61,200 bases of DNA, from NCBI RefSeq assembly GCF_018598185.1, contig NZ_JAHESC010000044.1:1-61200 (forward strand). Direction: 5' to 3'. The notes under the pieces were generated by a model. The model was given only the letters and a program-made list of their open reading frames with translations. It was not told the origin of the DNA and did not search any database. Source of the DNA: Dawidia soli (lineage in GTDB: Bacteria > Bacteroidota > Bacteroidia > Cytophagales > Cyclobacteriaceae). This document shows positions 20,948 to 58,515 of this stretch, piece after piece (position 1 is the stretch's first letter; every line of letters starts with the position of its first letter). Both the position numbers and the translations under genes were made by a program.

Positions 20948-21116
20948 GTGGCAGCCGCGAAAATCCAGCCCCACTCGGATGCGGAGGTCTAGGCCCGGGT
21001 TCTGGCGGCCTCCAATCGGGGTTTACCCGTATCAAAAGCATACCAAAGCTATACATTACCCGTATCATACCCATACCAAAGCTATCCTTGACATATCCCT
21101 GTCATATCACATCCCT
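20948..21116 (-). repeat. 11-bp-unit intergenic repeat element, copy 1 (minus orientation)
   Basis: From 21018 to 21116 the sequence is nine consecutive 11-base units without a single length error. Read on the minus strand they include ATGACAGGGAT, ATGTCAAGGAT, AGCTTTGGTAT (twice) and GGGTAATGTAT, and end in GGGTAAACCCC. A GC-rich tail follows down to GGCTGCCAC (20956-20948). The same unit series, start, end and tail recur at 58287-58504. It fills most of the gap between rpsT and the plus-strand zinc enzyme; apart from it I see only the rpsT promoter in that 346-base gap. Confidence 0.85.
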
Positions 21117-21160
21117 TGCCCCAACCCGGCAAAATTCCATATCTTCCTCCAAAAAACGTT

Positions 21161-22138
21161 GTGAAGCTTATACGCCATTGTTTTCCGGCCCTCATCCTTC
21201 TAACCCTCACCAGTCTAACCATTCCCAACACCACCTGGGGTTTTTTCGCTCACCGCCGCATCAACCGGCTGGCTGTATTCATCCTCCCCCCTGAAATGAT
21301 CGGCTTCTATAAAAAGAACATCGCCTACCTCACCGAAGCCGCCGTAAATCCTGACCGCCGCAGATTCATCCTGCCAGACGAAGCCCCGCGCCACTACATC
21401 GACCTCGACCACTTCGGCGACAGCGCGCGACACAAGGTCCCCCAATATTGGGACAGCGCGGTTTCCAAATACTCGGAAGACACCCTCAAAGCGCACGGCA
21501 TTCTCCCATGGCATATTGTCAAGACCTACTACCGACTGAAAGACGCCATGATGATTCGCGACGCTGCGGCCATCTTGCGCCTGTCGGCGGACCTTGGTCA
21601 TTATATCGGCGACGCCCACGTGCCCCTGCACACCACCGTAAATTATAATGGCCAACGCACCGGCCAGGAAGGCATTCACGCCTTCTGGGAATCCAGGCTG
21701 CCGGAATTGTTCTCGGACAACTACGACTTTTTTGTAGGAAAGGCGAAGTACATCGAGCATCCACAAACGGCCGCTTGGAATGCCGTCCTCGGTGCACACA
21801 GCGTGGTGGATTCCGTGCTGCAGGAAGAAAAGAAACTGGCTCTGCGACGTGGGAATAAAAAATACTCGTTTGAAACACGCGGGACACAAACCCAGAAAGT
21901 ATACGCCCGGGAGTACGCAGCCGCTTACCATCAAATAGTGGGAGTCATGGTAGAACGGCAAATGCGCGCGGCAATACACCTCACGGGTAGTATCTGGTAC
22001 ACCGCGTGGGTAAATGCCGGCCAGCCAGACCTGCAGGCATTGACAATAGAAATAGCCTCGGAAGAGGAGTTGGAAGAAAGACGATCAGCGTTGCGTGACT
22101 GGAAAGAACAACAAAGGAAGATTCGCGACCACGAATGA
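21161..22138 (+). CDS. Secreted zinc-dependent phospholipase C / S1-P1 nuclease-like protein
   Basis: About 325 residues. A signal peptide (LILLTLTSLTIPNTT) precedes W26-GFFAH, and an N-terminal Trp with closely following His is the typical mature start of the phospholipase C/S1-P1 nuclease fold, where it binds the trinuclear zinc site. Further metal ligands fit LRLSADLGHYIGDAHVPLH and GIHAFWESRL. It probably acts in the periplasm or outside the cell on phosphodiesters, but whether lipid or nucleic acid is the substrate is open. I place the start at GTG 21161; a TTG at 21116 lies inside the repeat element. Confidence 0.78.
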   Translation: MKLIRHCFPALILLTLTSLTIPNTTWGFFAHRRINRLAVFILPPEMIGFYKKNIAYLTEAAVNPDRRRFILPDEAPRHYIDLDHFGDSARHKVPQYWDSAVSKYSEDTLKAHGILPWHIVKTYYRLKDAMMIRDAAAILRLSADLGHYIGDAHVPLHTTVNYNGQRTGQEGIHAFWESRLPELFSDNYDFFVGKAKYIEHPQTAAWNAVLGAHSVVDSVLQEEKKLALRRGNKKYSFETRGTQTQKVYAREYAAAYHQIVGVMVERQMRAAIHLTGSIWYTAWVNAGQPDLQALTIEIASEEELEERRSALRDWKEQQRKIRDHE

Positions 22139-22156
22139 TTCGCCGGGAGCGAAACA

Positions 22157-22444
22157 TCAGGCCAACAAGGCCTGCACAATATTTCCCCACTCTTCCTGCA
22201 AGCTCACCTTGGGCACCGGCTTGCCCGCATGATGATACCAGTAAGAGGCATTTCCAAGATCACCTTCTACACGGTGCAGATAAGCGTGTACCCACGAGCC
22301 TTCTGCCGTGGCCACATCTTGCGCTAGCGTATGGGCAGCATCCCAATCGTCGTTCCCCGCAAACCACAGGGCTTGTAACAAGGGCGAAAGGGTAGACGAT
22401 GGCGCCGAGTCTTCCAGGGAGGCCGTAAATTCTTCGTAAGTCAT
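22157..22444 (-). CDS. Conserved hypothetical protein, 95 residues
   Basis: A small soluble protein with a distinctive core: LLQALWFAGNDDWDAAHTLA, then EGSWVHAYLHRVEGDLGNAS and YWYHHAGKPVP, ending EEWGNIVQALLA. I recall this pattern as a widespread bacterial protein of unknown function; it looks helical and repeat-like. The many Trp, His and Asp residues suggest a binding pocket, but there is no basis for naming an activity. Confidence 0.72.
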   Translation of the reverse strand: MTYEEFTASLEDSAPSSTLSPLLQALWFAGNDDWDAAHTLAQDVATAEGSWVHAYLHRVEGDLGNASYWYHHAGKPVPKVSLQEEWGNIVQALLA

Positions 22445-22496
22445 GCCGCCAAAGTATTAAAGCTCGCCCGAAAACCAAAGCGCCGTCAGTCAATAG

Positions 22497-23492
22497 TTAT
22501 TGAACAGGGTAATATACTTCTGTGATCCACTGCGCCGTATCCCGAACGACCATCGGATCGGTAACGTAAATTTCCCACGGACTGCCGCTGATCGTCAGGT
22601 GTTTGTTGGAAATATAACGATTGACCTGCTGATGAGTATCCGTCAGTTTGTCATACGCACCGGCGTGCACCGCCTTAACAGCTTTCCCCGCCGGGACCTG
22701 TTCTACCATATAGGGCTTGGGAAGTTTTGCGTCCGAAGCGATCGGCAGCGCCGCGATGATATCGATCTGACCGTCGGCTTCCCCCGGGTAAATACCCATA
22801 GCAGGACCCGTAACCTTTACCTTCGCCTTCTTTAACATAGAAAGAAGTGTGCCGTACATTGTTTCTAATTGTTTGCCGATGGCATCACTGTCGTCCGAAG
22901 ATGCCTTCCCCGCCATACCGACATAATGCAACGGAGCAGTATTCTCTTCGGTAATTTTAACGGTGAACACAGGCTTTGCTTCGGCCAGCGCTTTCAGGTG
23001 CGTGAGATTGTAATCAAAAGCCTTGTTCATTTCCGGTTTCATGATAATGCCGAACCACCGCGAAATGGGGTTAGCGCCCAGATCGCTCGAAAAGCCGATC
23101 GTTAGCTGCGTGCTGTCATCCTTGGGTATAAAAGTATACCATCCCTTGGCAACGCCATGCTCCATAAAGTCAAGATCTGTTTTGATAGAAGAGCCAGGAA
23201 TACTTTCCGTGATCGTGACTTTACCATCACCCGACTTCTCGCCCGTCCAGGAATACCACGCGCCCAGGCCCGCGCGTTTGTCACCATAGGTCAGTTGCAT
23301 GTCGTCTTTGTACAGGTCGTTCCAGTAAGACCACTTACCCCAACGCTCAAGGTCGTTGATATCCTCAAAGATGTTTTCAGCAGGTGCCCCGACTGTAATA
23401 TGGCGCGCGATCTCAAGCTTTCCGGGTAACATAAGGCCGACAATGGCCAATAGAACAAGAAGGGCTAAAAGCCCTAAAAAAAACTTTTTCAT
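22497..23492 (-). CDS. SRPBCC domain fused to GyrI-like effector-binding domain
   Basis: About 331 residues: an N-terminal membrane anchor (MKKFFLGLLALLVLLAIVGL), an SRPBCC/polyketide-cyclase-type ligand-binding domain (residues about 28-170; ITVGAPAENIFEDINDLERW), and a C-terminal GyrI/AraC effector-binding-like domain (about 185-331; KVTGPAMGIYPGEADGQIDI). Both folds bind small hydrophobic ligands, so a membrane-tethered sensor or carrier is plausible; no enzyme motif is visible. The ATG at 23492 is the start; upstream in-frame codons to 23579 look like leader. Confidence 0.82.
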   Translation of the reverse strand: MKKFFLGLLALLVLLAIVGLMLPGKLEIARHITVGAPAENIFEDINDLERWGKWSYWNDLYKDDMQLTYGDKRAGLGAWYSWTGEKSGDGKVTITESIPGSSIKTDLDFMEHGVAKGWYTFIPKDDSTQLTIGFSSDLGANPISRWFGIIMKPEMNKAFDYNLTHLKALAEAKPVFTVKITEENTAPLHYVGMAGKASSDDSDAIGKQLETMYGTLLSMLKKAKVKVTGPAMGIYPGEADGQIDIIAALPIASDAKLPKPYMVEQVPAGKAVKAVHAGAYDKLTDTHQQVNRYISNKHLTISGSPWEIYVTDPMVVRDTAQWITEVYYPVQ

Positions 23493-23571
23493 AGTGATGG
23501 AGGGTTTAAGTGACTGGAAGATAAGCAATAATCTTTTACGAAAACGTTTGCATTTATACACGAATGTCTGG

Positions 23572-23587
23572 ATATTCAACTGAATAT
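23572..23587. promoter_or_regulatory. 16-bp palindrome in a divergent intergenic region
   Basis: ATATTCA (23572-23578) and TGAATAT (23581-23587) form a perfect inverted repeat with a two-base centre in the 225-base gap between the SRPBCC-GyrI gene (minus) and the DUF4199 gene (plus). Its size and place fit a dimeric repressor operator. Nothing else was found in the gap. Confidence 0.35.
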
Positions 23588-23717
23588 ACGTTGGTAGGTA
23601 ACAGATTGGCAGGAGTATAAACAGGACCTAAACCGGTTCGCAAAAACGTAGAGGGTACTGGCCCTGTGGCACAGTATTTTAAGTTTTCTAAACAGAAGAA
23701 CACGAAACCTTAAGAAT

Positions 23718-24179
23718 ATGAATATCTGGAACAGAAGCACCCGCATCCCCGAGATCTACGGTACAGCGATCGCCCTGGGATTGATCGTCTACTTCTTTTT
23801 AATGTACGCCCTGGGGTTGATCCACGTTGTCGAACTTCGACTGCTGAACTTGGTCATTATGCTGGCCGGAGTTTATTACGCGCTGAAACAATTCACCCGA
23901 ACCCACCATGGACAGCTGAATTACTTCCGCGCCATGGCCGTCGGTGTAGGCGCTGCCGCGATCGGCTCCGCTACCTTCGCGGCGTTTTTATTCTTCTACC
24001 TGAAGATCGATACAAACCTGATGCAATCCCTCATTGACAATGAACCCATGGGGCCTTACCTCAATGCCTATATAGCCGCATTTATGGTCATGCTGGAAGG
24101 CCTTTTCTCTGGCTTGTTTGTGACGTTCGTACTATTGAACTGGATACGCACCGATCAGGTAAACCAGCCCATAGGCTGA
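23718..24179 (+). CDS. DUF4199 membrane protein (third copy in the window)
   Basis: 153 residues with four membrane helices; the central pattern ALKQFTRTHHGQLNYFRAMAVG corresponds to the KELRDYYQG…YWQG block of DUF4199. The loop between helices 3 and 4 is shorter than in the pair at 7.4-8.4 kb. Function unknown. A bidirectional terminator follows. Confidence 0.8.
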   Translation: MNIWNRSTRIPEIYGTAIALGLIVYFFLMYALGLIHVVELRLLNLVIMLAGVYYALKQFTRTHHGQLNYFRAMAVGVGAAAIGSATFAAFLFFYLKIDTNLMQSLIDNEPMGPYLNAYIAAFMVMLEGLFSGLFVTFVLLNWIRTDQVNQPIG

Positions 24180-24180
24180 T

Positions 24181-24217
24181 AAACAAAGAAGCCCACGTTT
24201 AGTGGGCTTCTTTGTTT
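24181..24217. terminator. Bidirectional terminator between convergent genes
   Basis: AAACAAAGAAGCCCAC (24181-24196) pairs perfectly over 16 bases with its partner at 24202-24217 around a five-base loop. The A-rich 5' arm and T-rich 3' arm let it work on both strands, for DUF4199 (plus) and the fucosidase (minus). Confidence 0.92.
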
Positions 24218-24222
24218 ACTAA

Positions 24223-25536
24223 CTACTTCAACTGGAGCTCGACGATCGTATCGAACTCCTGCCGACCCCCAGGGGGGATCTGTAATGTGATCCCATATTC
24301 GTTCTCCGCAAACTTGACCGGCGTCGATGTTCCATAAACCTTGGCCGTCTTGATCTTTTTGCCCCACGAAGGGATCGTCAAAACGTTATCCGACCAGCGA
24401 AGAATATGAACAAAAACTGTATTCCCTTTTTGCGTGGTCACACCCCAGTCCCGTGCTGTCAAGGGGCCGCCATGCGTGCCGTAAATAGTCTCTCCATTTT
24501 TAGCAAGCCAGTCGCCCACCTGTTGTAAGCGCTCAACATGCTCGGGTTGTATTTGCCCATTCGGCATCGGTCCGATGTTCAATAAGAAGTTGGCGTCGTA
24601 GCCGGCCGCCTTCACCAGGTACTGAACGAGCTCCTGCGTACTCTTATGGTGGTTGTCCTTCAGATTAAAACCCCATGAATGATTGATGGTCTCGCAAGTC
24701 TCCTTCGGCAGATCGCCGATCTTTTGCTCAGGCGCAAACCCAGTAGTGTTGTGGCCCGGCAGGTCCTTCTCGAACATCTGGAAATCCTCACCTGCAAAAG
24801 GCGTCACGTGGTGGTTACTGCCCACAAGAGCACCGGGCTGAAGTTTGTGGATCAAAGAGTACGTGCGCGCTAGGCGCCAGTCGGCATCCTTTTTATCCCA
24901 CATGCCGTCAAACCAGATGCCACCGATCTCGCCATAGCCTGTCAGGAGCTCCGTAAGCTGGGCATCCATATAGTCGAGGTAAGCATTCCAGTTGCCGTGT
25001 TCCGGCCGACCCGTCCAGCTGCCACCCGTACCCCCTCGGGGGAAATAATCGGGGTGATGCCAATCTAACTGTGAATGGTAAAAGAAAAGCTTGACACCCT
25101 CACGACGGCATTCGTCGGCCAGCATCTTCAACACGTCTTTGCCATAAGGCGACCGTTTTACGATAGTATAATCCGACACGCGGCTGTCCCACATGGCAAA
25201 CCCGTCGTGATGTTTGCTGGTAATGACGATATATTTCATGCCCGCGCGCTTCGCCAGCTGCACCCAGCTCTTGGCATCGAACGCGGTAGGATTGAAGAAC
25301 GCAGGCAGCTTCTCATAGTCCCGTATCGGAATCTGTTGCTGATTCATAACCCATTCGCCGTCGCCCAGCACACTATACACACCCCAGTGAATGAACAAAC
25401 CGAACCTCGCCGACTGAAACCATTCCCGGTTTTGTTTGTTGACATCGGAAGGAATATAGGTTGATTGTGCCACCGCGTTTCCCGAAATCCATAACAGGAC
25501 CAGGAACGACTTTAAAAGAATAGAAATTGGCTTCAT
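24223..25536 (-). CDS. Secreted alpha-L-fucosidase (GH29)
   Basis: About 437 residues: signal peptide (ILLKSFLVLLWISGNAVAQ), then the GH29 (alpha/beta)8 barrel with WFQSARFGLFIHWGVYS, YIVITSKHHDGFAMWDS and the nucleophile region GGIWFDGMWD, and a C-terminal beta-sandwich. It cleaves alpha-linked L-fucose from glycans in the periplasm. The start is ATG 25536 at the signal peptide; a 10-codon extension exists. It is isolated: no SusCD or other glycosidase adjoins it. A palindrome lies in the short gap shared with the divergent aminopeptidase gene. Confidence 0.92.
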   Translation of the reverse strand: MKPISILLKSFLVLLWISGNAVAQSTYIPSDVNKQNREWFQSARFGLFIHWGVYSVLGDGEWVMNQQQIPIRDYEKLPAFFNPTAFDAKSWVQLAKRAGMKYIVITSKHHDGFAMWDSRVSDYTIVKRSPYGKDVLKMLADECRREGVKLFFYHSQLDWHHPDYFPRGGTGGSWTGRPEHGNWNAYLDYMDAQLTELLTGYGEIGGIWFDGMWDKKDADWRLARTYSLIHKLQPGALVGSNHHVTPFAGEDFQMFEKDLPGHNTTGFAPEQKIGDLPKETCETINHSWGFNLKDNHHKSTQELVQYLVKAAGYDANFLLNIGPMPNGQIQPEHVERLQQVGDWLAKNGETIYGTHGGPLTARDWGVTTQKGNTVFVHILRWSDNVLTIPSWGKKIKTAKVYGTSTPVKFAENEYGITLQIPPGGRQEFDTIVELQLK

Positions 25537-25565
25537 AGAGTTTTGGTTTAAATTGCAGCCTGACA

Positions 25566-25580
25566 ACCGTTCAGAACGGT
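25566..25580. promoter_or_regulatory. Palindrome between divergent fucosidase and aminopeptidase genes
   Basis: ACCGTT (25566-25571), CAG, AACGGT (25575-25580): a perfect inverted repeat in the 61-base gap between the two start codons. A regulator bound here could control both genes. The gap is too short to hold much else. Confidence 0.3.
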
Positions 25581-25597
25581 GTTTTGAAAATTAACCA

Positions 25598-26899
25598 TTG
25601 AAAATGAGATACAAAAACATACCGAAGGAACTCTTCGAATCAAACCGGGAAAAGCTTCGCAAGGAACTAAAGCCTCACGCCCTGCTCGTCGTCAATGCCA
25701 ACGACGTTATGCCGACAAACTCCGACGGCAGCATGCGCTTCCGGCAGAACAGTGACCTCTTCTATCTCACAGGCGTAGACCAGGAAGAAACCATCTTAGT
25801 CATGTGCCCCGACTTTCCAGACGAACGCTATAGAGAAGTCCTCTTTGTGCGCGAGACCAGCGAAATGATCGCGATCTGGGAAGGACACAAACTGACCAAA
25901 CAGGAAGCCCGCGAAAAAACCGGCATCCAAACCGTGTTGTGGGTATCCGAATTTCAAAAAGTCTTTAACCTCATGATGCTCATGGGGGACACAGAATATG
26001 TATACCTCAACACCAACGACCATTACCGTGCCGACAACCCCGTGGAGACACGCGAGGGGCGTTTTGTAAAATGGTGCCTGGAGAAATTTCCGCTGCACAA
26101 GTATGAGCGCCTGGCACCCATCATGCACCGTCTGCGGTCGGTAAAATCGCAACACGAGCTCGACCTGATGCAACGCGCGTGCGACATTACCGATGCCGGC
26201 TTCCGGCGTGTATTGAAGTTCGTGAAGCCCGGTGTGAAGGAGTACGAAATTGAAGCCGAATATGTACACGAATTTCTGCGCCGCGGCTCCCGCGGTTTTG
26301 CCTACGAACCCATTATTGCCTCCGGCACAAACTCGTGCGTGCTGCACTACCTCGAGAACAACCAGGTCTGCCAGGATGGCGACCTCCTGTTGCTGGATGT
26401 AGGCGCGGAGTATGCCAACTACAATGCCGACCTGACACGTACAATACCCGTCAACGGTCGCTTCTCCAAACGCCAGAAGGAAGTCTACAATGCCGTGTTG
26501 CGCGTAAAACGCCACGCCTATTCGCTGCTGCGTCCCGGGGTGAAATACTACGAATACCACAAACAGATCCAACAGTTTACCGAACAGGAGCTTATCGGGT
26601 TAAAGCTCATAGACAAGACCGACATCAAAAATCAGGATAGGGACAAACCCCTCTTCATGAAATACTTCATGCACGGCACCAGCCACCAGCTCGGTCTCGA
26701 TGTGCACGATGTCGGCAGCATGTATCATGAAATGCGCGAAGGTCAGGTTTGGACAGTAGAACCGGGCATATACATCCGGGAAGAAGGCCTCGGCGTTCGC
26801 ATTGAAAATAACGTAGTCATTGGCAAGGAGGGAGTACACGACCTGATGAAGAACATACCCGAAGAAGTAGAGGAGATAGAACATATCATGAATAGCTAA
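25598..26899 (+). CDS. pepP: Xaa-Pro aminopeptidase (aminopeptidase P family)
   Basis: A 433-residue cytoplasmic M24 metallopeptidase that removes the first residue from peptides with Pro in second place. An N-terminal AMP_N domain (residues 1-150) leads to the pita-bread domain. The five metal ligands are visible: the two Asp in LLLDVGAEYANYNADLTRT, His in FMHGTSHQLGLDVHDVG, Glu in TVEPGIYI, and Glu in GVRIENNVVIG. Length is standard. It is followed after ten bases by a DUF4198 gene, probably cotranscribed. Confidence 0.93.
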   Translation: MKMRYKNIPKELFESNREKLRKELKPHALLVVNANDVMPTNSDGSMRFRQNSDLFYLTGVDQEETILVMCPDFPDERYREVLFVRETSEMIAIWEGHKLTKQEAREKTGIQTVLWVSEFQKVFNLMMLMGDTEYVYLNTNDHYRADNPVETREGRFVKWCLEKFPLHKYERLAPIMHRLRSVKSQHELDLMQRACDITDAGFRRVLKFVKPGVKEYEIEAEYVHEFLRRGSRGFAYEPIIASGTNSCVLHYLENNQVCQDGDLLLLDVGAEYANYNADLTRTIPVNGRFSKRQKEVYNAVLRVKRHAYSLLRPGVKYYEYHKQIQQFTEQELIGLKLIDKTDIKNQDRDKPLFMKYFMHGTSHQLGLDVHDVGSMYHEMREGQVWTVEPGIYIREEGLGVRIENNVVIGKEGVHDLMKNIPEEVEEIEHIMNS

Positions 26900-26909
26900 A
26901 CAAACGACG

Positions 26910-27710
26910 ATGCGAAAGCGGTTTCTCATGCTGACGGTATTACTCGCAGCCACATGCGCCGTGGAGGCAGCCACCTGGTGGATATTGCCCAGCAACTATT
27001 TCTTCGAAGTAGGAGAGACCGCAAAGATCGGGTTTGTACAGGGAGAAGAGTTTAAAGCCGAGCCCTGGCCGTTGACGCAAAGCCAGGTAGTACGCCTCGA
27101 ACATTACCGTGCCGGCCTTGGCGTTAAAGATCTCCGGGCTTCGATACAAAATGACGATCGCGAAAGACTTGCCATAAAATTCGACAGGGCGGGAACACAG
27201 TTGCTCGCCCTGCAAAGCGCACCACAGTTTAAAGCGTGGGACGCTGCGGAATTCAACGCATTCCTCGAGGAAAATGGACTGGAAACCATCCTGGCGAAAC
27301 GCAAAGAGAGCCGCACCAGTGATAAGCCCGCAGGCGAGCGGCAGGTCGTGTATACCAAATTGTTGATACAGGTAGGAGATACGCCAGACGATGTATATAA
27401 AAAAGCAGTGGGCTTCCCATTGGAAATAATACCCGAACGAAACCCCTACAGCCTCCGGACAGGAGATGTCATGCGTTTTAAGATTCTGAAGGATGGCAAG
27501 CCATTGTTCGGCGCACGGGTAAAAGTGTGGAACCGGAAAGATAATCGTACCACCTTGCAGAACATCTATACCGAGAAAGACGGAACCATGGAGACCCGCC
27601 TGAGCAGCGCCGGGCCGTGGATGGTCAGTGTCGTACAGACAGAACCGTCAAAGATCGCCGGAACAGAATGGAACACAGCTTCGGCCAGCCTCGTCTTTGG
27701 CATCCGATAA
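26910..27710 (+). CDS. DUF4198 domain periplasmic protein
   Basis: 266 residues: signal peptide (MLTVLLAATCAVEA), then the HxxW-type opening ATWWILPSNYFFEVGE seen in DUF4198 proteins, and a beta-sandwich body ending with KVWNRKDNRT…GTMETRLSSAGPWMVSVV. DUF4198 members are periplasmic and often tied to metal (nickel, cobalt) uptake, but no transporter adjoins this one. The stop overlaps the next start (TAATG), indicating coupled translation. Confidence 0.8.
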   Translation: MRKRFLMLTVLLAATCAVEAATWWILPSNYFFEVGETAKIGFVQGEEFKAEPWPLTQSQVVRLEHYRAGLGVKDLRASIQNDDRERLAIKFDRAGTQLLALQSAPQFKAWDAAEFNAFLEENGLETILAKRKESRTSDKPAGERQVVYTKLLIQVGDTPDDVYKKAVGFPLEIIPERNPYSLRTGDVMRFKILKDGKPLFGARVKVWNRKDNRTTLQNIYTEKDGTMETRLSSAGPWMVSVVQTEPSKIAGTEWNTASASLVFGIR

Positions 27711-28147
27711 TGCAAAAACCAACAAGAACTATGCTTTTTTCAGATAAGGCACCCAAACCAGTCGGCGCATACCCGCACGCAAGACAAGTAGGCAACCTGC
27801 TTTTTTTATCCGGCGTGGGACCAAGGAAACGCGATGCAAAAGACATCCCCGGCGTCACACTGGATGAAGACGGAAAAATTCTTCAGTATGACATAGAAAC
27901 ACAGTGCCACGCCGTCTTTGAGAATGTACGCCTCATCCTGGAGGCATCCGGCGCGCGTTGGGATAACCTGGTTGATGTGACCGTCTTTCTCACGAACATG
28001 AAAGACGACTTCCTAACCTTTAACCGGATCTACGCGGAATACTTCAAAGAAAATCAACCGTGCCGTACCACGGTAGAGGTAAATGCATTGCCGACACCGA
28101 TCGCGATCGAGCTTAAATGTATTGCCGTGATAGGATCAGGACACTAA
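27710..28147 (+). CDS. RidA/YjgF-family protein, 2-aminomuconate deaminase-like
   Basis: 145 residues of the RidA imine/enamine deaminase superfamily, with GAYPHARQVGNLLFLSGVGP, the internal FENVRLILEASGA and the active-site-side PCRTTVEVNALP and IELKCIAV. The GAYPHA and SGxGPR wording is closer to 2-aminomuconate deaminase of the 3-hydroxyanthranilate route than to housekeeping RidA. No other tryptophan-breakdown gene is in the window. Its ATG (27710) overlaps the TAA of the DUF4198 gene; an ATG at 27731 is also possible. Its end overlaps the convergent TerB gene by 12 bases. Confidence 0.82.
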   Translation: MQKPTRTMLFSDKAPKPVGAYPHARQVGNLLFLSGVGPRKRDAKDIPGVTLDEDGKILQYDIETQCHAVFENVRLILEASGARWDNLVDVTVFLTNMKDDFLTFNRIYAEYFKENQPCRTTVEVNALPTPIAIELKCIAVIGSGH

Positions 28148-28534
28148 ATATTTTTTCGTGAGCTCTTTCAGGGAAGCAGTCTCCTCGGCCGACATAGGTG
28201 TAGCCCTGACATGCAGCAGCAAATCGAACATAACCTGTTGATCGTATCCTAACGAAGCTGCGATCTTGGAGCAGAACATCATCTCCTCCTTATACATACG
28301 TTCGTCAATTTTCATGAGCTGCACCAGGCTGAAGATGTAATTGAACTTCTCGTCGGCCGTCAGGTCTTGCGGAACGATCAACTCATGGTAGGCATCAAAA
28401 AGAGGTTCGATCTCATCGGGATAAAAACCGTTGGCCCGGCCGATGTTGAGGATGTAAAACTGTTCGCGTTCCGCCACGCGGCCATCGATCTGAGCAAGGC
28501 TGATCAACAACTTCATTTGTGCAAGTGGTGCCAT
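28136..28534 (-). CDS. TerB-like domain protein
   Basis: About 132 helical residues resembling the tellurite-resistance TerB fold: AQMKLLISLAQIDGRVAERE, then the paired second half FSLVQLMKIDERMYKEEMMF. The acidic metal-binding pattern (IDGRV…E and IDERM…E) is repeated in both halves, as in TerB. No ter cluster is nearby, so a role in tellurite resistance is not implied. The start is taken at ATG 28534; its 3' end overlaps the RidA gene. Confidence 0.72.
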   Translation of the reverse strand: MAPLAQMKLLISLAQIDGRVAEREQFYILNIGRANGFYPDEIEPLFDAYHELIVPQDLTADEKFNYIFSLVQLMKIDERMYKEEMMFCSKIAASLGYDQQVMFDLLLHVRATPMSAEETASLKELTKKYLVS

Positions 28535-28666
28535 AGAGAGAAATCCGGATTGTTGAGGCAAAGGCAAAATTAACCACAATTAAGCAATTATGTCCAAAAG
28601 TCATCGTTGGGAAAGCCGGGGAGCATAAAAACGTCGTATTTAAGCGGGGAATCGTAATTTAAGGAC

Positions 28667-49771: not shown

Positions 49772-49805
49772 ACAGTTATAATAACAAGGAGCTTTAACGA
49801 TAGTT

Positions 49806-50546: not shown

Positions 50547-50573
50547 TAGGCTGCTGCCGGCCGGTTGTTCAGG

Positions 50574-50611
50574 ATTATTTCCAAAATTTGCAGGGAATTT
50601 CTGGAAATAAT
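50574..50611 (+). promoter_or_regulatory. Hairpin covering the start codon of the pterin synthase gene
   Basis: ATTATTTCCA (50574-50583) pairs perfectly with TGGAAATAAT (50602-50611); an inner AAATT/AATTT pair (50584-50588, 50596-50600) extends the stem to 15 bp with one bulged C. The first two bases of the ATG (50610-50612) are inside the stem and an AGGG lies in the loop. It could control translation or be a DNA operator. Confidence 0.5.
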
Positions 50612-51029: not shown

Positions 51030-51055
51030 ATCGCAAAAGTCGTAACTCGCAAGCC

Positions 51056-52180
51056 ATGCGATATTACATCATAGCCGGGGAGCGCTCAGGCGATCTGCAT
51101 GCCGGTAATTTGGTTCGGGCCATTAAGCAATACGATCCGAACGCGGACTTCAAAGGATTCGGTGGTGACTACATGGCATCGGGTGGAGTAAAGCTCACCG
51201 TGCACTACCGGGACCTCGCCTTTATGGGCCTCGTCGAGATCCTCACCAGTCTGAACAAGATATCCCGTTACATCAAGCAGTGCAAGGCAGACATCGAGGC
51301 CTACAACCCCGATGTCATCATCCTGGTGGACTATGGGGGCTTCAATCGCCGTATCGCCAAATTCGGCAGGAAGAAGGGCATCAAGGTTTTCTATTACATA
51401 CCGCCGAAAGTATGGGCCTGGTATCAAAGCCGTGCAAAAGAGCTAAAGGCAAACGTCGATCAGCTCTTCGTCATTCTTCCTTTTGAGAAAGATTTCTTCA
51501 AACGCTTTGATTGGGATGTGGATTACGTCGGCAACCCCGTGCTCGACGCGGTAAAGGCACACGCACCTGACAGGCAGTTCCCGGAGCGAAACAATCTTAT
51601 GAACAAGGAGCCTTTGGTAGCCCTGCTACCCGGCAGCCGTAAACAGGAATTGCGCACCATCATTCCGTTGATGGCATCCGTGGTAGAAAAATTTCCGACG
51701 CGTCACTTTGCGGTGGCCGCTGTATCGAATCTCGATAAATCATTATATGATCCGTTGCGGCAGTACGCCAATGTCACGTTCATCTTTGAAGATACTTACA
51801 ATTTGCTGCAGCATGCTCAGGCAGCCATTGTGACGTCTGGTACGGCCACGCTGGAAACGGCCCTGTTCCGGGTACCCCAGGTAGTAGTCTACAAAACGAC
51901 CAGCACGATCAGCTACTGGCTGCTAAAACAGATCATCAAGGTTGAATACATATCGCTGGTAAACCTGATTGCCGGAAAGGAAGTTGTGAAGGAGATGATC
52001 CAGGGTGCCGCCAATCCCGAAGATGTATCGGCGGAGCTCACCCGCATGTTAGACAATGCGCCCTACCGGGAGACCATGCTCCAGGAATACGACCGTATCA
52101 TAAGGATCCTGGACACTGGGTCGGCATCGGACAATGCCGCGCGGCTGATGACCCAATACCTGAAGAAAGCCGGAAAGTAG
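51056..52180 (+). CDS. lpxB: Lipid-A-disaccharide synthase
   Basis: A 374-residue GT19 glycosyltransferase that joins UDP-diacylglucosamine and lipid X in lipid A synthesis at the inner membrane. It opens with IIAGERSGDLHAGNLVRAIK and contains VDYGGFNRRIAKFGRKKGI, IPPKVWAWYQSRAKELK, DVDYVGNPVLDAV, LLPGSRKQELR and VTSGTATLETALFRVPQVV. Length normal. It follows the pterin synthase by 26 bases and converges on clpX with five bases between stops. Confidence 0.97.
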   Translation: MRYYIIAGERSGDLHAGNLVRAIKQYDPNADFKGFGGDYMASGGVKLTVHYRDLAFMGLVEILTSLNKISRYIKQCKADIEAYNPDVIILVDYGGFNRRIAKFGRKKGIKVFYYIPPKVWAWYQSRAKELKANVDQLFVILPFEKDFFKRFDWDVDYVGNPVLDAVKAHAPDRQFPERNNLMNKEPLVALLPGSRKQELRTIIPLMASVVEKFPTRHFAVAAVSNLDKSLYDPLRQYANVTFIFEDTYNLLQHAQAAIVTSGTATLETALFRVPQVVVYKTTSTISYWLLKQIIKVEYISLVNLIAGKEVVKEMIQGAANPEDVSAELTRMLDNAPYRETMLQEYDRIIRILDTGSASDNAARLMTQYLKKAGK

Positions 52181-52197
52181 CCCGGTTAGGCTACTTT
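52174..52197. terminator. Bidirectional hairpin spanning both stop codons of lpxB and clpX
   Basis: AAAGTAGCC (52174-52182) and GGCTACTTT (52189-52197) form a perfect 9-bp stem with a six-base loop. The lpxB stop (52178-52180) lies in one arm and the clpX stop (52186-52188) in the loop, so the terminator is built from the coding ends. T-runs are only three bases, so strength is uncertain. Confidence 0.55.
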
Positions 52198-53421
52198 CAG
52201 CTTACTGTAATGTGATTTGCTAAATTTCTCTTCCGCGTATGCGCGGTTGATGACGAGCCTGTCGGTATTCTTCTCAGACGGAAGCTCGAACATGGCGTCG
52301 TTGATGATCGCTTCGCAAATGCTGCGCAGGCCACGGGCACCCAGCTTAAACTCCATGGCTTTCTCGACGATGAAGTCGATGGCGCCGTCTTTGAATTCAA
52401 GCTCGATGCTTTCCATATCAAACAGCTTGCGATATTGTTTGATGAGCGCGTTTTTGGGCTCTGTCAGGATCTTACGCAGGGCATCGTTGTCCAGCGGGTT
52501 CAGGTACGACACCACCGGCAAGCGGCCGATAAGCTCAGGGATGAGGCCGAAGCTCTTGAGGTCCTGCGCCGTGACGAACTGCAGCAGGTTGTCTTTGTTG
52601 ATATCGGCAGGATGCAGGCCATCGAGACCCGCCACAAAGCCCAGGGGCCGTGTATTCAGGCGGTTACCAATGAATCGGGAAATTCCTTCGAATGCACCGC
52701 CGCAGATGAACAGGATGTTCTCCGTGTTGACGGTGATCATTTTCTGATCCGGGTGCTTACGGCCGCCCTGGGGTGGCACGTTCACCGCGGTGCCCTCCAG
52801 GAGCTTCAGCAGGGCCTGCTGAACGCCCTCGCCGCTGACATCGCGGGTGATGGAAGGGTTGTCGGATTTCCGCGCGATCTTGTCGATCTCGTCGATATAA
52901 ACAATGCCGCGTTCGGCTGCCTCGACGTTGTAATCGGCGGCCTGGAGCAAGCGCGTCAAAATGCTTTCTACGTCTTCGCCGACATAACCGGCTTCTGTCA
53001 GCACGGTGGCGTCGGCGATACAGAACGGAACTTGCAGCATCTTCGCCAGTGTACGGGCCAGGTAAGTCTTACCTGTACCGGTTTCACCGACCATGATGAT
53101 GTTCGATTTCTCGATCGTCACGTCGCTGTCGAGCTTGCGTTGCATCAACCGTTTGTAGTGGTTGTACACCGCTACCGACATGATCTTTTTCGCTTCGTCC
53201 TGACCGATGACGTACTCGTCCAGGAACTTCTTGATCTCTATCGGTTTGATCAGCTTGAAGTTGGGCGAAAAACCCGCCTCCGTCTTGCTTTTCTTCTCCT
53301 CGCTGAGGATCTGGTTTGCCTGCGTCACACACTTGTCGCAAATGTGTGCGTGGATACCCGAGATCATCAGATCAACATCTTTTTTACTTCTTCCGCAAAA
53401 TGAGCAGGTAACTTCAGCCAT
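52186..53421 (-). CDS. clpX: ATP-dependent Clp protease ATP-binding subunit ClpX
   Basis: A 411-residue AAA+ unfoldase. The N-terminal zinc-binding domain has [11 protein letters not shown] and CDKC; then Walker A GETGTGKT, Walker [14 protein letters not shown], the pore-loop GYVGEDV, and sensor 2 [12 protein letters not shown]. It feeds substrates to ClpP, encoded 97 bases upstream on the same strand; trigger factor lies beyond, the conserved tig-clpP-clpX order. Normal length. Confidence 0.98.
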
Positions 53422-53518
53422 GTTTTGTAGAGATTAGCAATGTGCAAATGTGCGCATTGAGAGTTTCAAAAATACCCAATAGTTAGCACATCTGCACAGT
53501 GACAAATCTGCCTTTAAA

Positions 53519-54193
53519 TTAGTTTTTCTTACGTTCCAGAACTTCGTCGATCAGGCCATATTCCTTGGCTTCAGAGGCGCGCATCCAGTAGTCACGGTCA
53601 GAATCTTTCTCGATTTTCTCGTATTTGGCACCGCTGTGCTTGGCCAGGATATTGTATAGGTCCTTTTTCACCTCCAGGGTCTGCTTCAATGAAATTTCCA
53701 TATCCGAAGCCTGACCTTGCATGCCACTCATGGGCTGGTGGATCATGACCCGGGCGTGCGGCAGAGCCGAGCGTTTTTTGGCCGCGCCGGCCGTCAGCAG
53801 CACGGCGCCCATCGATGCCGCCAGGCCGGTACAGATCGTGGCAACGTCGGGGTTTACATATTGCATGGTGTCATAAATGCCGAGGCCGGCATACACCGAG
53901 CCACCGGGGCTGTTGATGTACATAATGATGTCCTTTTTCGGGTCTGAAGACTCGAGGAAAAGCAGCTGCGCGGTGATCAGGTTGGCGATCTGGTCGTCAA
54001 TACCCATTCCCAGGAAGATGATCCGGTCAGAAATAAGACGTGTAAAGACGTCGATCGCGCGGAAGTTGCCCGGCCGTTCTTCGATCACGTACTGCGTCAT
54101 GTTCTGGATCTGCTGAGCATAGCTGTCGACGGTATTACCGCTCATGCCCAGGTGGTGCACAGCGTACTTTCTGAATTCGTTGTTATACTGCAT
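53519..54193 (-). CDS. clpP: ATP-dependent Clp protease proteolytic subunit ClpP
   Basis: A 224-residue serine protease that forms the 14-mer chamber for ClpX. The triad is visible: S127 in [13 protein letters not shown]152 in [10 protein letters not shown]201 in KDSDRDYWM. The IGF-loop region and the [18 protein letters not shown] strand are intact. An N-terminal extension of about 25 residues precedes the family core, probably processed. Upstream of clpX, downstream of tig. Confidence 0.98.
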
Positions 54194-54300
54194 AGTTAAA
54201 GATGAAATAATTACGTTTTAGGGGTCGAAATTATAGTAATCTTAGGCATCCAAGGTCACAAATCCAACCCTTTCGATCCTTAAACCCATTTAAAGCGAAA

Positions 54301-54339
54301 ATGGTTTTAATTCCCTCCCGCAGGCGGAATTAAAACCAT
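54301..54339 (-). terminator. Terminator-like inverted repeat between tig and clpP
   Basis: ATGGTTTTAATTCC (54301-54314) and GGAATTAAAACCAT (54326-54339) form a perfect 14-bp stem with an 11-base loop, about 70 bases after the tig stop, followed on the minus strand by TTTTC. It may partly separate tig from clpP. The rest of the 215-base gap shows nothing. Confidence 0.6.
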
Positions 54340-54408
54340 AGTCGTTTGGCCGGTGCGCTTTATTGCAGTCGTTGGCAACGGACCGCTACCAGCCTGAGTC
54401 CGTATCGA

Positions 54409-55755
54409 TTAGTGCTTGTGCTCTTCGACGATCTTCTTAAACTCTTCTACCGACACTTTTTTCTCCTGTACGGTAATGTTCTCCTTGATCAGCTTCATGA
54501 TCTTCTCGCCGCGAAGCTGGTTGTAGAGGCGCATAAAGTTCTGGCCGTTCTCGCTCTGCAGATAATTGTCGGCAATGGCATCCATCCGGTCACCCAGCTG
54601 GGCAGCAAACTGCTGGCCGCCAAACTGCGCCAGGATCATTTCTTTCGCTTTCTCGCGTACTTCCTCCGACTCTACGGTGACCTGCTTGTCTTCGGCGATC
54701 TTGTTTTTTACGAGGTCCCATTTCAGGCCGCGTGCGTAGGCATCAAACTCTTTTGCCAGTACATCGTCTGTTACCTGACCGTTGCTGGTGGACTTTAACC
54801 AGGTCTTCAGGAACTCCGCAGGCATCTCGATCTTGGTATTGTCGAGGTAATAATCTTCGATATGGTGGTCGAGGAAGTGTTCCGACTCGCGCTTGTAGTT
54901 CTCGCCAATCGTTTCCTTCACCTTCTCGATGAAATCCGCTTCGGTCGTTACCACGCCCGGGCCGAACACACGGTCAAAAAGCTCGGTGTTAACGGCAGCC
55001 GGCTCGTTATGGCTGATGTTGGTTACTTTGAAAATATAAGTTCCTTTGGCGTTTTTGGCTTCTTCTGCCGGGATGCCCAGCAACTGACCGGTAAGGCCTT
55101 CTTCAGCAAACAGCTTGCTTACTTCAAATTCTACCTCTTCGTCCTTCTTCACGCCAACAAACCTGGCTTGCTCTTTCTTGTTGACCTTTGCTACCTGCAG
55201 GAACGCGTATTCTTTTTTGAAGTCGCCTTCTTTTGCACGAAGCTCACCGGTCAGGTTATCGTCCGAGCCAGCAGCTTCCGGATAGGTCATGGTGCCAAAG
55301 CGGTTTTTGAGGTCGGCAATCGTTTCGTCGATCACTTTCTCGTCTACGGTGATGGAGTATCCCTGAACCTTCACTTTAGACGAAAGATCGTATGAGAAGT
55401 CTTCCACCATCCCAATTTGGTACTCGAACTCAAAATCGCGTTGCGTATCCCAGTCGATGCCAGCAGCTTTTTCCTGATTGGGCAGGGGTTCGCCGAGGAT
55501 GCGTAGCTTATTGTCCTTGATGTAATCCGAAAGCTTGTGGGAGAGGAGGTGGTTGATCTCGTCCACCAGGATGGATTTACCGAACATCTTCTTGATCACC
55601 CCCGTCGGTACTTTGCCCTGACGGAAGCCTTTGATATTCGCCTTGCGCGAATAATCTTTCAGCTTTTCTTCCACATGGGGTTGATAATCACCTTCGGTTA
55701 ATCTAATTTTAATTAGACCTTCAGTGCTGTTCTTTTTGTCCAGAATTATTTCCAA
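54409..55755 (-). CDS. tig: Trigger factor
   Basis: A 448-residue ribosome-bound chaperone. The N-terminal domain has the ribosome-docking signature ANIKGFRQGKVPTG, followed by a divergent FKBP-like domain and a long helical C-terminal domain. The N-terminus MEIILDKKNSTEGLIKIRL matches Bacteroidota relatives exactly, which fixes the start at 55755, where the codon is TTG rather than ATG. No clear ribosome-binding site is seen, as is common in the phylum. First gene of tig-clpP-clpX. Confidence 0.96.
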   Translation of the reverse strand: MEIILDKKNSTEGLIKIRLTEGDYQPHVEEKLKDYSRKANIKGFRQGKVPTGVIKKMFGKSILVDEINHLLSHKLSDYIKDNKLRILGEPLPNQEKAAGIDWDTQRDFEFEYQIGMVEDFSYDLSSKVKVQGYSITVDEKVIDETIADLKNRFGTMTYPEAAGSDDNLTGELRAKEGDFKKEYAFLQVAKVNKKEQARFVGVKKDEEVEFEVSKLFAEEGLTGQLLGIPAEEAKNAKGTYIFKVTNISHNEPAAVNTELFDRVFGPGVVTTEADFIEKVKETIGENYKRESEHFLDHHIEDYYLDNTKIEMPAEFLKTWLKSTSNGQVTDDVLAKEFDAYARGLKWDLVKNKIAEDKQVTVESEEVREKAKEMILAQFGGQQFAAQLGDRMDAIADNYLQSENGQNFMRLYNQLRGEKIMKLIKENITVQEKKVSVEEFKKIVEEHKH

Positions 55756-55839
55756 AGCTTAAAACGTTTGATTGTTTACCAGAGAAACCAAGAACCCTCT
55801 CTGCCCGTGTTTTTGTTATACGAACAGTGAGGGTTCAGC

Positions 55840-55924
55840 TGGTCCGGATGGAGGGACTCGAACCCCCACGCCTTTCGGCACCAGATCCTAAGTCTGGCAC
55901 GGCTACCAATTACGCCACATCCGG
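55840..55924 (-). tRNA. tRNA-Leu (anticodon TAG), CCA encoded
   Basis: On the minus strand the acceptor stem CCGGATG (55924-55918) pairs with CATCCGG (55850-55844), followed by discriminator A (55843) and an encoded CCA (55842-55840). The anticodon arm is CCAGA-CTTAGGA-TCTGG with anticodon TAG (reads CUA and other CUN). The long variable arm (GTGCCGAAAGGCGT) and GGTTCGAGTCC T-loop are typical of a class II leucine tRNA. Confidence 0.95.
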
Positions 55925-55936
55925 AAAATGAGGCCG

Positions 55937-55944
55937 CAAATTTA
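55937..55944 (-). promoter_or_regulatory. Probable -7 element of the tRNA-Leu promoter
   Basis: TAAATTTG on the minus strand (55944-55937) matches TAnnTTTG and lies 12 bases before the tRNA 5' end, followed by the common CGG start region. The -33 element is weak (ATTC at the 19-base spacing). Confidence 0.5.
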
Positions 55945-56047
55945 TGGAATATTCAGAAATAAAGAATAGTTTACGTTTTTAATTCACAAAGAGCTTACAA
56001 AAGAGGAAAAAACCTCGTTTATTGGTTCAAATCAGCGATTTCAGAAG

Positions 56048-58264
56048 ATGGTAATCGATCAGGAGCAGGAGAAAAAAGAGATCATCAGCCGATACAGAAG
56101 ATTACTACGCAAGGCTAAACCCATTTTGAAGGATGAGGATGCCAAATTGATCAAAAAGGCTTTTACGCTATCGCTGGATGCTCACAAAGACATGCGCCGC
56201 AAGTCTGGTGAGCCGTTTATTTTCCATCCCCTGGCCGTGGCCGAGATTTGCGTGGAAGAGATCGGCCTGGGCACGACCTCGATCATCGCCGCGCTCATGC
56301 ACGATGTCGTGGAAGACACTGACATCGAGCTGGTGGACATCGAGCGGATGTTCGGCAAAAAGATCGCCAAGATCATCGATGGTCTGACGAAGATCCGCGG
56401 CGTTTTTGAATACGGCACTTCGCAGCAGGCGGAAAACTTTCGCAAGATGCTGTTCACGCTGTCGGAAGACGTTCGGGTGATCCTTATCAAGCTGGCTGAC
56501 CGTCTGCACAACATGCGCACGCTCGACAGCATGCCCCGGCAGAAGCAGCTCAAAGTCGCCAACGAGACCATTTATCTCTATGCCCCGCTGGCCCACCGCC
56601 TGGGGCTGAACGCCATCAAAACCGAGCTGGAAGACCTGTACCTGCGGTTTACGGATAAACCGATCTATCAGTCTATCGCGCAGCAGATCGACGCTACCCG
56701 GTCGGCCCGGAACAAGTTCATCAAACAGTTCGTGGTTCCGATCAAGGAGGAGCTTGACAAGCTCGACATTCATTACGACATCAAGGGGCGCCCGAAGTCC
56801 ATCCACTCCATCTGGAATAAAATGCGTAAGCAGAACATTCCCTTTGAGGAGGTATATGACCTGTTTGCCATCCGCATCATACTCGACACCAGCATGGAGC
56901 ACGAAAAGGCGCTCTGCTGGCAGGTGTATTCCATCGTAACAGATTATTATACGCCCAACCCGGACCGCCTGCGCGACTGGATCAGCACTCCCAAGGCCAA
57001 TGGCTACGAGTCGTTGCACACCACGGTCATGGCCAAGAACGGTCAGTGGGTAGAAGTGCAGATCCGTACCAAACGCATGGACGAAATTGCCGAGAAAGGC
57101 TACGCCGCCCACTGGAAATACAAAGACTCCAACACTACCGCCGAGTCCAACCTGGAGAAGTGGCTGGCCCGCGTCCGTGACCTGCTGGAACAAAACAATC
57201 ACAATGCCCTCGACTTTGTCGACGACTTTCGCGGCAACCTGTTCAGCGACGAGGTATTTGTGTTCACGCCGAAGGGCGAGCTCAAAACATTGCCTTATGG
57301 CGCCACGGCGCTTGATTTTGCCTTCGAGATCCACACCCAGGTTGGATCGAAATGTATCGGCGCCAAAGTCAACAACAAGCTGGTACCGATCAACTACGTG
57401 CTGAAGAACGGTGACCAGATCGAGATCCTGACCTCGGCCAAACAGCGCCCGCATGAAGACTGGCTGCGCTTTGTGGTCAGCTCCAAGGCCAAGTCGCGCA
57501 TTAAGGATGAGCTCAAGGAGGACAAAAAGAAATCGGCCGAGGAAGGCAAGGAGATCCTGCTCCGCAAACTGCGTCAGCTCAAGGAAGAGCCCACCCAGCA
57601 GTTTATGGAACAACTACGCGAGCATTTCAAAGTGCCCGCCAATTTTGAGTTGTATTACCGGGTCGGCCGGGGTTTTATCACCGCAGCCGACATCAAAAAG
57701 TTTGTCGAGAACAAACCCATTTCCCCCATAAAAAGCCGGCCCAACCTGCAGGTGGCCGACGCCAAGGCCATCGAGCAGGAGATCACCAAGATCAAAGGCC
57801 GCTACGAGGACATTCTGCTGGTTGGCGAGGACATGGACGTGGTAGACTACAAGCTGGCCAAATGCTGCACGCCCATTCCCGGTGACGACGTTTTTGGGTT
57901 TGTGACCGTATCTGAAGGTATCAAAATACATCGCACCAACTGCCCCAATGCGCCCGAGCTGCTATCGCACCACGGCAACCGGGTCGTAAAGGCCAAATGG
58001 ACGTCCCAGCACGAGGTGGCATTCCTCACGGGTCTGAAGATCCGTGGCACCGACCGCGTGGGGCTCATTAATGATGTTTCCAAGATCATCTCTGAAGAAC
58101 TGAAGGTGAACATGAGCTCCATGTCCATCCATACCGACTCTGGTATTTTTGAAGGCGAGATCATGCTTTATGTAAACGACACCCGCCATCTGGAGCAGCT
58201 GATCGAAAAGTTGCGGAGCGTGGAAGGTGTCGTAAAAGTCAGCCGTTTCGATTCCAAGGAATAA
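56048..58264 (+). CDS. Bifunctional (p)ppGpp synthetase/hydrolase (RelA/SpoT)
   Basis: A 738-residue long RSH alarmone enzyme. The N-terminal HD hydrolase site is intact (ALMHDVVEDTDIELVDIE), as is the synthetase region (DIKGRPKSIHSIWNKM, FAIRIILDT, ANGYESLHTTVM, EVQIRTKRMDEIAEKGYAAH). A TGS domain (FVFTPKGELKTLPYGATALD), helical and zinc-finger-like region (LAKCCTPIPGDDVFGF) and C-terminal ACT domain follow. Both activities should be present, controlling the stringent response. Stands alone; the repeat element follows its stop by 22 bases. Confidence 0.96.
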   Translation: MVIDQEQEKKEIISRYRRLLRKAKPILKDEDAKLIKKAFTLSLDAHKDMRRKSGEPFIFHPLAVAEICVEEIGLGTTSIIAALMHDVVEDTDIELVDIERMFGKKIAKIIDGLTKIRGVFEYGTSQQAENFRKMLFTLSEDVRVILIKLADRLHNMRTLDSMPRQKQLKVANETIYLYAPLAHRLGLNAIKTELEDLYLRFTDKPIYQSIAQQIDATRSARNKFIKQFVVPIKEELDKLDIHYDIKGRPKSIHSIWNKMRKQNIPFEEVYDLFAIRIILDTSMEHEKALCWQVYSIVTDYYTPNPDRLRDWISTPKANGYESLHTTVMAKNGQWVEVQIRTKRMDEIAEKGYAAHWKYKDSNTTAESNLEKWLARVRDLLEQNNHNALDFVDDFRGNLFSDEVFVFTPKGELKTLPYGATALDFAFEIHTQVGSKCIGAKVNNKLVPINYVLKNGDQIEILTSAKQRPHEDWLRFVVSSKAKSRIKDELKEDKKKSAEEGKEILLRKLRQLKEEPTQQFMEQLREHFKVPANFELYYRVGRGFITAADIKKFVENKPISPIKSRPNLQVADAKAIEQEITKIKGRYEDILLVGEDMDVVDYKLAKCCTPIPGDDVFGFVTVSEGIKIHRTNCPNAPELLSHHGNRVVKAKWTSQHEVAFLTGLKIRGTDRVGLINDVSKIISEELKVNMSSMSIHTDSGIFEGEIMLYVNDTRHLEQLIEKLRSVEGVVKVSRFDSKE

Positions 58265-58286
58265 TACGATTGCTCCTGTAGCGATT

Positions 58287-58407
58287 ATGTCAGGGATAGG
58301 TGAAGGATAGCTATGGGATAGCTTTGATACGGGTAATGTACGGCTTTGGTACGGCTTTGATACGGGTAATCTACGGGTTTGGTACGGCTTTGATACGGGT
58401 AACCCCC
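58287..58407 (+). repeat. 11-bp-unit intergenic repeat element, copy 2 (plus orientation)
   Basis: Eleven consecutive 11-base units with no length error. They begin ATGTCAGGGAT, AGGTGAAGGAT, AGCTATGGGAT; the middle is dominated by GGCTTTGATAC, GGGTAATGTAC and GGCTTTGGTAC, where three units make a 33-bp higher-order repeat (58331-58396); the last unit is GGGTAACCCCC. A GC-rich tail follows and the element ends with GGCTGCCAC at 58496-58504, as in copy 1 at 20948-21116. It lies in the 453-base gap between relA and fur. Confidence 0.9.
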
Positions 58408-58432
58408 GGACTAAAGGCAGGCCGAAGCCGGG

Positions 58433-58487
58433 GTTGTAGCACTGATATGGCAGTATTGTAGCAGAGTTACGGCACAGTTGAAGCAGC
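58433..58487 (+). repeat. Second 11-bp-period block with a different consensus
   Basis: Five further 11-base units follow the GC-rich tail: GTTGTAGCACT, GATATGGCAGT, ATTGTAGCAGA, GTTACGGCACA, GTTGAAGCAGC. Odd units share GTTGTAGCA and even units share a GGCA centre, giving a 22-bp alternation. I do not see this block in copy 1. Confidence 0.6.
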
Positions 58488-58515
58488 CTAAAGAGGGCTG
58501 CCACAGCTCTGCTAC
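58458..58515 (+). repeat. Nested inverted repeats at the end of the repeat element
   Basis: GTAGCAGAG (58458-58466) pairs perfectly with CTCTGCTAC (58507-58515), enclosing a second stem GCAGCC/GGCTGC (near 58483-58488 and 58496-58501) with a TAAAGAG loop. Together they could form a branched RNA or cruciform. Confidence 0.5.

Follow-up and report, generated by a model that had tools for sequence, protein, structure and literature searches.

Dispersed intergenic elements of 11-bp units as a candidate DNA platform in helical register

Two arrays of 11-bp units lie far apart in the window, the whole stretch of DNA analysed here (61.2 kb), and they raise the question of what kind of element is built of units that are constant in length and variable in sequence, and what such an element could be for. 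Eleven base pairs are about one turn of the DNA helix. The reading that we favour, with a probability of about 0.4 and on the basis of sequence comparisons, is that the arrays belong to a superfamily of dispersed 11-bp-unit DNA elements of ~100-165 bp, which would form a platform at the DNA level, held in helical register, for a wrapping or cooperatively binding protein; gyrase is the leading candidate.

The preliminary description of this DNA had placed one array on the minus strand at 21018-21116 and the other on the plus strand at 58287-58407, and rereading of the sequence bore out both the positions and the strands (Table 1). A scan of the window for lag-11 self-similarity, with a threshold of at least 27 of 44 positions that was reached by 1 of 100 order-2 Markov windows, returned two regions, at 21051-21114 (29/44) and at 58269-58405 (33/44). 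The order of units common to both copies, from CAGGGATA-type units through GCTTTG-type units to a closing GATACGGGTAA, was found again in many other copies. The GC-rich tail with GGCTGCCAC that the two copies had been thought to share fared less well. Aligned locally, the two tails share no better match than that single 9-mer, and 19 of 200 shuffled tails score equally well. Copy 1 has it at +77 from the closing unit and copy 2 at +104, which puts it in different 11-bp registers. The GGCTGCCAC of copy 2 is in fact part of a separate palindromic element, referred to below as type 2, that lies directly behind the array. A lag-10 region of ACAAACGAAT-like units was also seen in the window, between called genes (3455-3541, 32/44 positions).

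Table 1. Positions of the 11-bp-unit features in the window.
Feature	Position	Strand	Description
Copy 1, type-1 array	21023-21116	minus	8-9 units of 11 bp; closing unit GATACGGGTAA at 21023-21033
Copy 1, right arm ("GC-rich tail")	20956-21022	minus	register behind the closing unit is the average of 42 elements, not of copy 1 alone
Copy 2, type-1 array	58287-58402	plus	~10.5 units; last closing unit GATACGGGTAA at 58392-58402
Type-2 element	58408-58559	minus	imperfect palindrome of 11-bp units directly behind copy 2; R2 match E 4.8e-31
Five successive 11-bp type-2 units	58433-58487	plus	GTTGTAGCACT, GATATGGCAGT, ATTGTAGCAGA, GTTACGGCACA, GTTGAAGCAGC; read directly
Loop and two inverted inner units	58488-58518	plus	loop CTAAAGAGG; units GCTGCCACAGC, TCTGCTACATC (containing GGCTGCCAC)

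The 11-bp step is largely kept across the arrays. When units were chained with steps of 7-15 bp allowed, 261 of 305 steps were of 11 bp, namely 187 of 222 in 45 arrays of G000, the genome to which the window belongs (122 contigs, 7.48 Mb), and 74 of 83 in 22 arrays of a sister genome of the same genus (G002). The remaining steps were mostly pairs summing to 22 (9+13, 7+15) or lay at the outer ends of arrays; in the chain of copy 1 (L005), the last five steps are 11 and the first two are 12 and 15. Forty-two elements from both genomes, aligned on GATACGGGTAA, show an 11-bp GC register that runs from about -88 to about +77 and is absent outside these limits, so the GC-rich tail shares the frame of the array, on average over the elements. 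For the right arm (+13..+68), GC power was 0.239 as against 0.013 in rotated controls, and none of 2000 controls was as high. Similarly, TA was phased at -88..-44 (p 1.7e-15) and at +13..+57 (p 1.2e-15), with the phase gone at +57..+101 (p 0.34); 4 of 46 anchors were left out of this analysis.

The register is held by sequences that resemble each other poorly, the type-1 array copies being 55% identical to each other. Among non-identical bases, the S/W class was kept in the array itself (0.341 vs 0.321 in rotated controls) and slightly at +46..+79 (0.345 vs 0.333, sd 0.003), and at -88..-44 and +13..+46 it was not kept beyond rotated controls, so the register of the right arm may be that of decayed old units. 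The closing unit is near-invariant in this comparison, partly because the elements were chosen by the closing-unit pattern.

At the same threshold of 27 of 44 positions, G000 yielded 14 lag-11 regions over 461 kb and G002 yielded 7 over 400 kb. These samples are biased: arrays were the reason for choosing the window and 6 stretches out of the other 40, and the two long runs of stretches lie on contigs known to carry some. Other lags (5, 7, 8, 10, 13, 14, 16, 17, 19, 20, 23) gave 0-1 regions each, lag 22 gave 8 in G000 and 1 in G002, and 694 kb from eight other genomes held 2 lag-11 regions. A diffuse genome-wide periodicity was considered as an explanation and rejected: the lag-11 GC autocorrelation of the sampled intergenic DNA of G000 falls from 0.0061 to 0.0009 (noise sd 0.0020) once 12 array regions of 148 are removed.

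The units come in several alphabets. Type 1 is one arm of ~3-11 units followed by a closing unit GATACGGGTAATCC; in type 2, ~150 bp in all, a short loop separates two inverted arms of about six units; and type 3 joins type-1-like units to GTCGCTATAAG units and was seen in five copies (two on contig C34, and L204, L205 and L206). By eye, a CCCTGGCTTTGRCC-like stretch is common to the right arms of type 1 and the ends of type 2. Type 2 was mapped with a profile, R2, built from 8 sequences including the element behind copy 2, which R2 also matches on the opposite strand (58426-58567, E 1.4e-5). In G000, R2 gave 44 matches at 23 distinct places, 20 of them matched at least over positions 6-147 of 158; 21 of the 23 match on both strands because the type-2 element is an imperfect palindrome. 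For 21 copies (L250 and L255 are incomplete and were dropped from the register and pairing tests), identity at lag 11 is 0.63 and 0.47 in the two arms, as against 0.19-0.27 at lags 7-10 and 12-15; the alignment was made with a high gap penalty, and the result of no gap in 21 arms therefore leans gapless. Further arrays were noted. A second array type, of 10-bp units (TTCCCATATG-like), occurs in the L202/L188 intergenic region as well as at L057, L065 and L068, and another 11-bp alphabet (CCCGAGTTAAG / CTCGGACTATA) was seen near type-1 arrays at G002 C6:336529-336605 (L112) and at L070. Both species also carry AT-rich arrays of 11-bp units (TATTGGATATC-like) whose halves are inverted, at G000 C34:274905-274983 (L089) and G002 C6:192913-193014 (L105).

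The element had been described as dispersed, intergenic and stepping by 11 bp, and a genome scan for further copies and for drift in unit length had been proposed; dozens more copies were found, in which the steps stay mostly at 11 bp, and genome-wide copies, free-step chaining, GC register and gene context now extend that description. The copy-2 region 58270-58520, which includes type-2 sequence, has 48 BLAST matches in G000, and the closing-unit pattern with up to 3 mismatches has 73, compared with 0 for the reversed control. Profile R1, a sequence-only profile of the array 3' end made from 30 of 34 extracted copies (4 were left out), gave 82 matches in G000 at E <=0.1. These correspond to 62 distinct places on 37 contigs, of which 44, on 28 contigs, are strong (E <=0.00123), and some of the weak places are type-3 composites.

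Outside its own genome, the family was found in few relatives. G002 has 28 matches to R1 and 12 to R2, and the other five genomes of the genus gave one marginal match to R1 (G005, E 0.094) and none to R2; types 1 and 2 are clear in two of the seven genus genomes. Under stricter filters, R2 matched only G000 in a sample of 148 family genomes, which evidently did not include G002. Of 59 genomes taken as relatives, a DNA query hit three, G000 included; the third, G009, matched weakly (E 0.0056) in surroundings that by eye resemble an IS-type transposase. The copy-2 array had no match in 72,556 plasmid records at E 0.1. A wider spread, looked for with the exact 19-mer GGCTTTGATACGGGTAATC, was rejected: the 4 stretches found in a genome-contig collection that may omit near records belong to a Porphyromonas MAG, an Acinetobacter, a gammaproteobacterial MAG and a Neisseria MAG, and are read as chance.

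Copy 1 is located between the gene of ribosomal protein S20 and a divergent gene encoding a protein without a Pfam match at 1e-5, and copy 2 between a RelA/SpoT gene and a Fur-family regulator, its array beginning 22 bp past the RelA/SpoT stop codon. Gene context was tabulated with a simple home-made gene caller (38 rows, corresponding to 36 distinct type-1 arrays in 29 distinct loci), and all 36 arrays are intergenic, none lying inside a called gene. Among the 32 arrays that could be classed, 22 are flanked by co-directional, 6 by divergent and 4 by convergent genes, compared with 87, 45 and 16 of 148 background intergenic regions. The co-directional arrays point with the genes in 10 cases and against them in 12, without orientation bias. 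This even orientation, and the gene classes set against the background, fit a role at the DNA level. The arrays at L026, L057, L162, L180 and L198 adjoin coding stretches that are related to each other (67-72% DNA identity in self-comparison) and whose protein start, by eye, is MAKQKGIIKLIGKIGD...

The elements could also be selfish or neutral, that is, a non-autonomous mobile element or a minisatellite slipping in 11-bp steps, with no cellular role and with the register as an echo of copying; we take this as a serious minority possibility. Both genomes carry arrays at relA, L012, L014, L015/L024, L021, L026, L198, L201 and L202, and at L004, L006, L162 and L199 the orthologous sites hold partly alignable or different arrays. 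Over six type-1 ortholog pairs, a comparison that leaves out L014, L024 and L198 (arrays in both genomes) as well as L004, L006, L162 and L199, array length differs by 33 bp (relA), 22 (L021/L067, taken from unit positions), 11 (L202/L188) or 0 (L026, L012, L201). The G002 ortholog of copy 2 has an array shorter by 33 bp, with the alignable 95 bp 93% identical. In the L202/L188 region, the 10-bp-unit array shows a 10-bp gap between G000 and G002 next to the 11-bp array with its difference of 11 bp; slippage is thus at work there as well. Five orthologous G002 sites have no array: rimM-trmD (gene names read from the sequence), the site of window copy 1, L016, L017 and L025. At rimM-trmD the difference is clean, a 100-bp insert in G000 with CCTATG on both sides that is absent from G002, where the site reads TAATATGCAC; the other four, each searched singly in G002, are without sharp ends.

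The array sequence turns over fast between the sister species, as a neutral repeat would lead one to expect, and no bias is apparent in where the arrays lie or which way they point. Identity over the type-2 element is 66-71% in four ortholog pairs, as against 79-89% for flanking coding sequence and 73-92% for other intergenic DNA, and the element is thus less conserved than both kinds of neighbour, as a neutral repeat would be. Gap events per base were 3/142, 6/165, 4/161 and 10/125 inside the element and 4/309, 7/336, 15/500 and 8/368 in other intergenic DNA, not rarer inside in three of the four pairs, in alignments whose identity of 66-71% and cheap gaps make the counts unreliable. They give no support to selection against insertions and deletions in type 2, and to this extent count against selection on the register.

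On the other hand, slippage alone does not easily explain chains of free 11-bp steps in copies that are 55% identical, nor a register kept across arms that are poorly alike. A mobile or MITE-like origin, one of the roles first offered, draws partial support from the array-less orthologous sites; no transposase and no consistent target duplication were found for it, and reading by eye revealed no terminal repeat shared among the type-1 elements. Of transposases, the Y1 (IS200-like/RAYT) family was the one searched for, and G000 has four such genes (L183-L186, on C26, C40, C32 and C87). By eye, three of them are flanked by other GC-rich hairpins and the fourth (L183) by other repeats, and a REP/RAYT origin of the arrays is contradicted by these other repeats. 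A RAYT gene 474 bp away from one array (L058) has hairpins of its own (L185). The Y1-flanking hairpins (GGCGCCGGTC...GACCGG or GGCGCAAGT...) also occur at several other intergenic places and may represent a REP family of G000.

Another serious minority possibility, rated slightly lower, is that a dedicated DNA-binding protein, ParR-like with a ribbon-helix-helix fold or another small cooperative protein, reads the sequence of each 11-bp unit, the arrays being chromosomal centromere-like or silencing sites. Type-1 units do keep a base consensus: over 150 units, the T and A of TA carry 1.23 and 1.61 bits, the T at position 9 carries 1.43 and the GG 0.82 and 0.85, and such conserved bases fit a base-reading protein better than gyrase. 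Moreover, ParR wraps DNA on tandem repeats with one dimer per iteron, and its site parC can be split into two blocks (PMC5016525, in the passages available). However, the 11-bp steps of types 2 and 3 are filled by other unit sequences, and the type-1 places are spread over 37 contigs (28 for the strong ones) and not gathered at one locus.

That the arrays act as a structured RNA or a single-stranded DNA hairpin (attenuator, terminator or small RNA) is very improbable, for both window arrays fold no more stably than shuffled sequences on either strand (z 1.83, 0.19, 0.49, -0.62), orientation to genes is even, and Rfam above gathering score recognises in the window only a tRNA gene elsewhere (RF00005, 55843-55924, minus), with two sub-threshold hits in the region 58230-58620. 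Some folding signal is nonetheless present: two short type-1 forms gave z -2.69 and -1.55, and the type-2 region of copy 2 gave -2.07 and -1.46 on its two strands. The inner type-2 units pair better within than between elements (unit 1, 0.723 vs 0.680, 33/3000 permutations; unit 2, 0.723 vs 0.639, 0/3000; unit 3, 0.485 vs 0.438, 62/3000), whereas for units 4 and 5 pairing is weaker inside an element than across elements, and for unit 6 the two are equal. Among the roles first offered, the structured RNA is poorly supported for type 1, and a protein array on DNA fits best, as a candidate. A promoter reading of TAnnTTTG inside the units was dropped because TTTG recurs at 11, 22 or 33. Taken together, the even orientation, the lack of a gene-side preference, the lack of folding excess in the window arrays and the register across unlike units point to a role, if there is one, on double-stranded DNA.

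Under the DNA-platform reading, the helical register would be kept because every unit must show the same face to one protein complex, which would bind cooperatively or wrap ~130-165 bp. Slippage or unequal exchange may add and remove units, and copies falling out of register would be weeded out. The partner would most probably be DNA gyrase, as at the Mu strong gyrase site or BIME-2, followed by a dedicated ParR-like protein; gyrase comes first because its known motif is a long GC-periodic pattern in two arms. A more far-reaching form of the idea, which we regard as doubtful, is that the helical register, rather than the letters, carries the information: the unlike alphabets GCTTTGATACG, CTGCCGYAACT/ATGCTTTATCT and GTCGCTATAAG in the same 11-bp frame, the fast turnover and the length changes by whole turns would then be those of sites where DNA is wrapped and its topology set, dozens of them along the chromosome in this lineage.

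Intergenic repeats, short direct-repeat arrays and helically phased gyrase sites are already known. BOX and ERIC are modular or palindromic intergenic elements of 100-160 bp for which we know of no helical-unit register, cyanobacterial STRR are intergenic arrays of short direct repeats, BIMEs are intergenic, and the parC repeats of R1 are 11 bp long. To our knowledge, no repeat family described from bacteria combines a fixed unit length of 11 bp with a variable unit sequence, and the listings and passages available from the open-access literature contained no description of 11-bp intergenic arrays or of such elements. The arrays are no CRISPR, as their units differ in sequence and adjoin head to tail, with no spacers between them. 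They are like REPs in being small, dispersed and intergenic, and type 2 is also palindromic; REPs, as given in the available part of PMC3733652, measure 20-40 bp and bear a tag, GTAG or CGTC, at one end, whereas the elements here extend over 100-165 bp in 11-bp steps. The tag was looked for by eye in the aligned copies, and by size the elements fall outside the REPs. The TAACTGA heptamers of Beggiatoaceae form many intergenic sets of one short unit (PMC4679880, passages available); that unit has seven bases and one sequence, and ours has 11 bp and a variable sequence. The parC iterons, as far as the available passages on ParR go, are alike in being short tandem repeats with a cooperative wrap. 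parC is one locus upstream of a par operon, in contrast to the dozens of dispersed chromosomal sites and several unit types found here.

The closest comparison is with gyrase sites. The E. coli gyrase motif, in the available passages of PMC6379681, is symmetrical and 130 bp long, with two arms of 10.75-bp GC periodicity and a 36-bp centre, and gyrase prefers BIMEs among chromosomal sites; all gyrases studied have a 10-11 bp GC preference according to the available part of PMC12324340. The Mu strong gyrase site and this motif may resemble our elements in carrying GC in helical period over two arms, within ~130 bp there. In a gyrase-like two-arm test, phase-locked GC extended over ~165 bp here, with S/W conservation in excess of identity confined to the array and, slightly, to +46..+79, as above. 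The type-2 units nearly reach the dyad, coming within ~5-9 bp of it, as against the 36-bp centre of the gyrase motif. The elements also differ from gyrase sites in their explicit unit repeat, conserved bases and closing unit.

Finally, bacterial chromosomes carry a 10-11 bp periodicity of debated role, described in the passages available as diffuse. The period is the same; here, in contrast, discrete elements carry the lag-11 GC signal of the sampled intergenic DNA, and they suggest a landing strip for a protein that would hold or wrap the DNA from one side. With the 10-11 bp signal residing in discrete, countable elements, and with sister-species sites that have and lack them, selection on helical register in bacterial DNA becomes directly testable in one organism.
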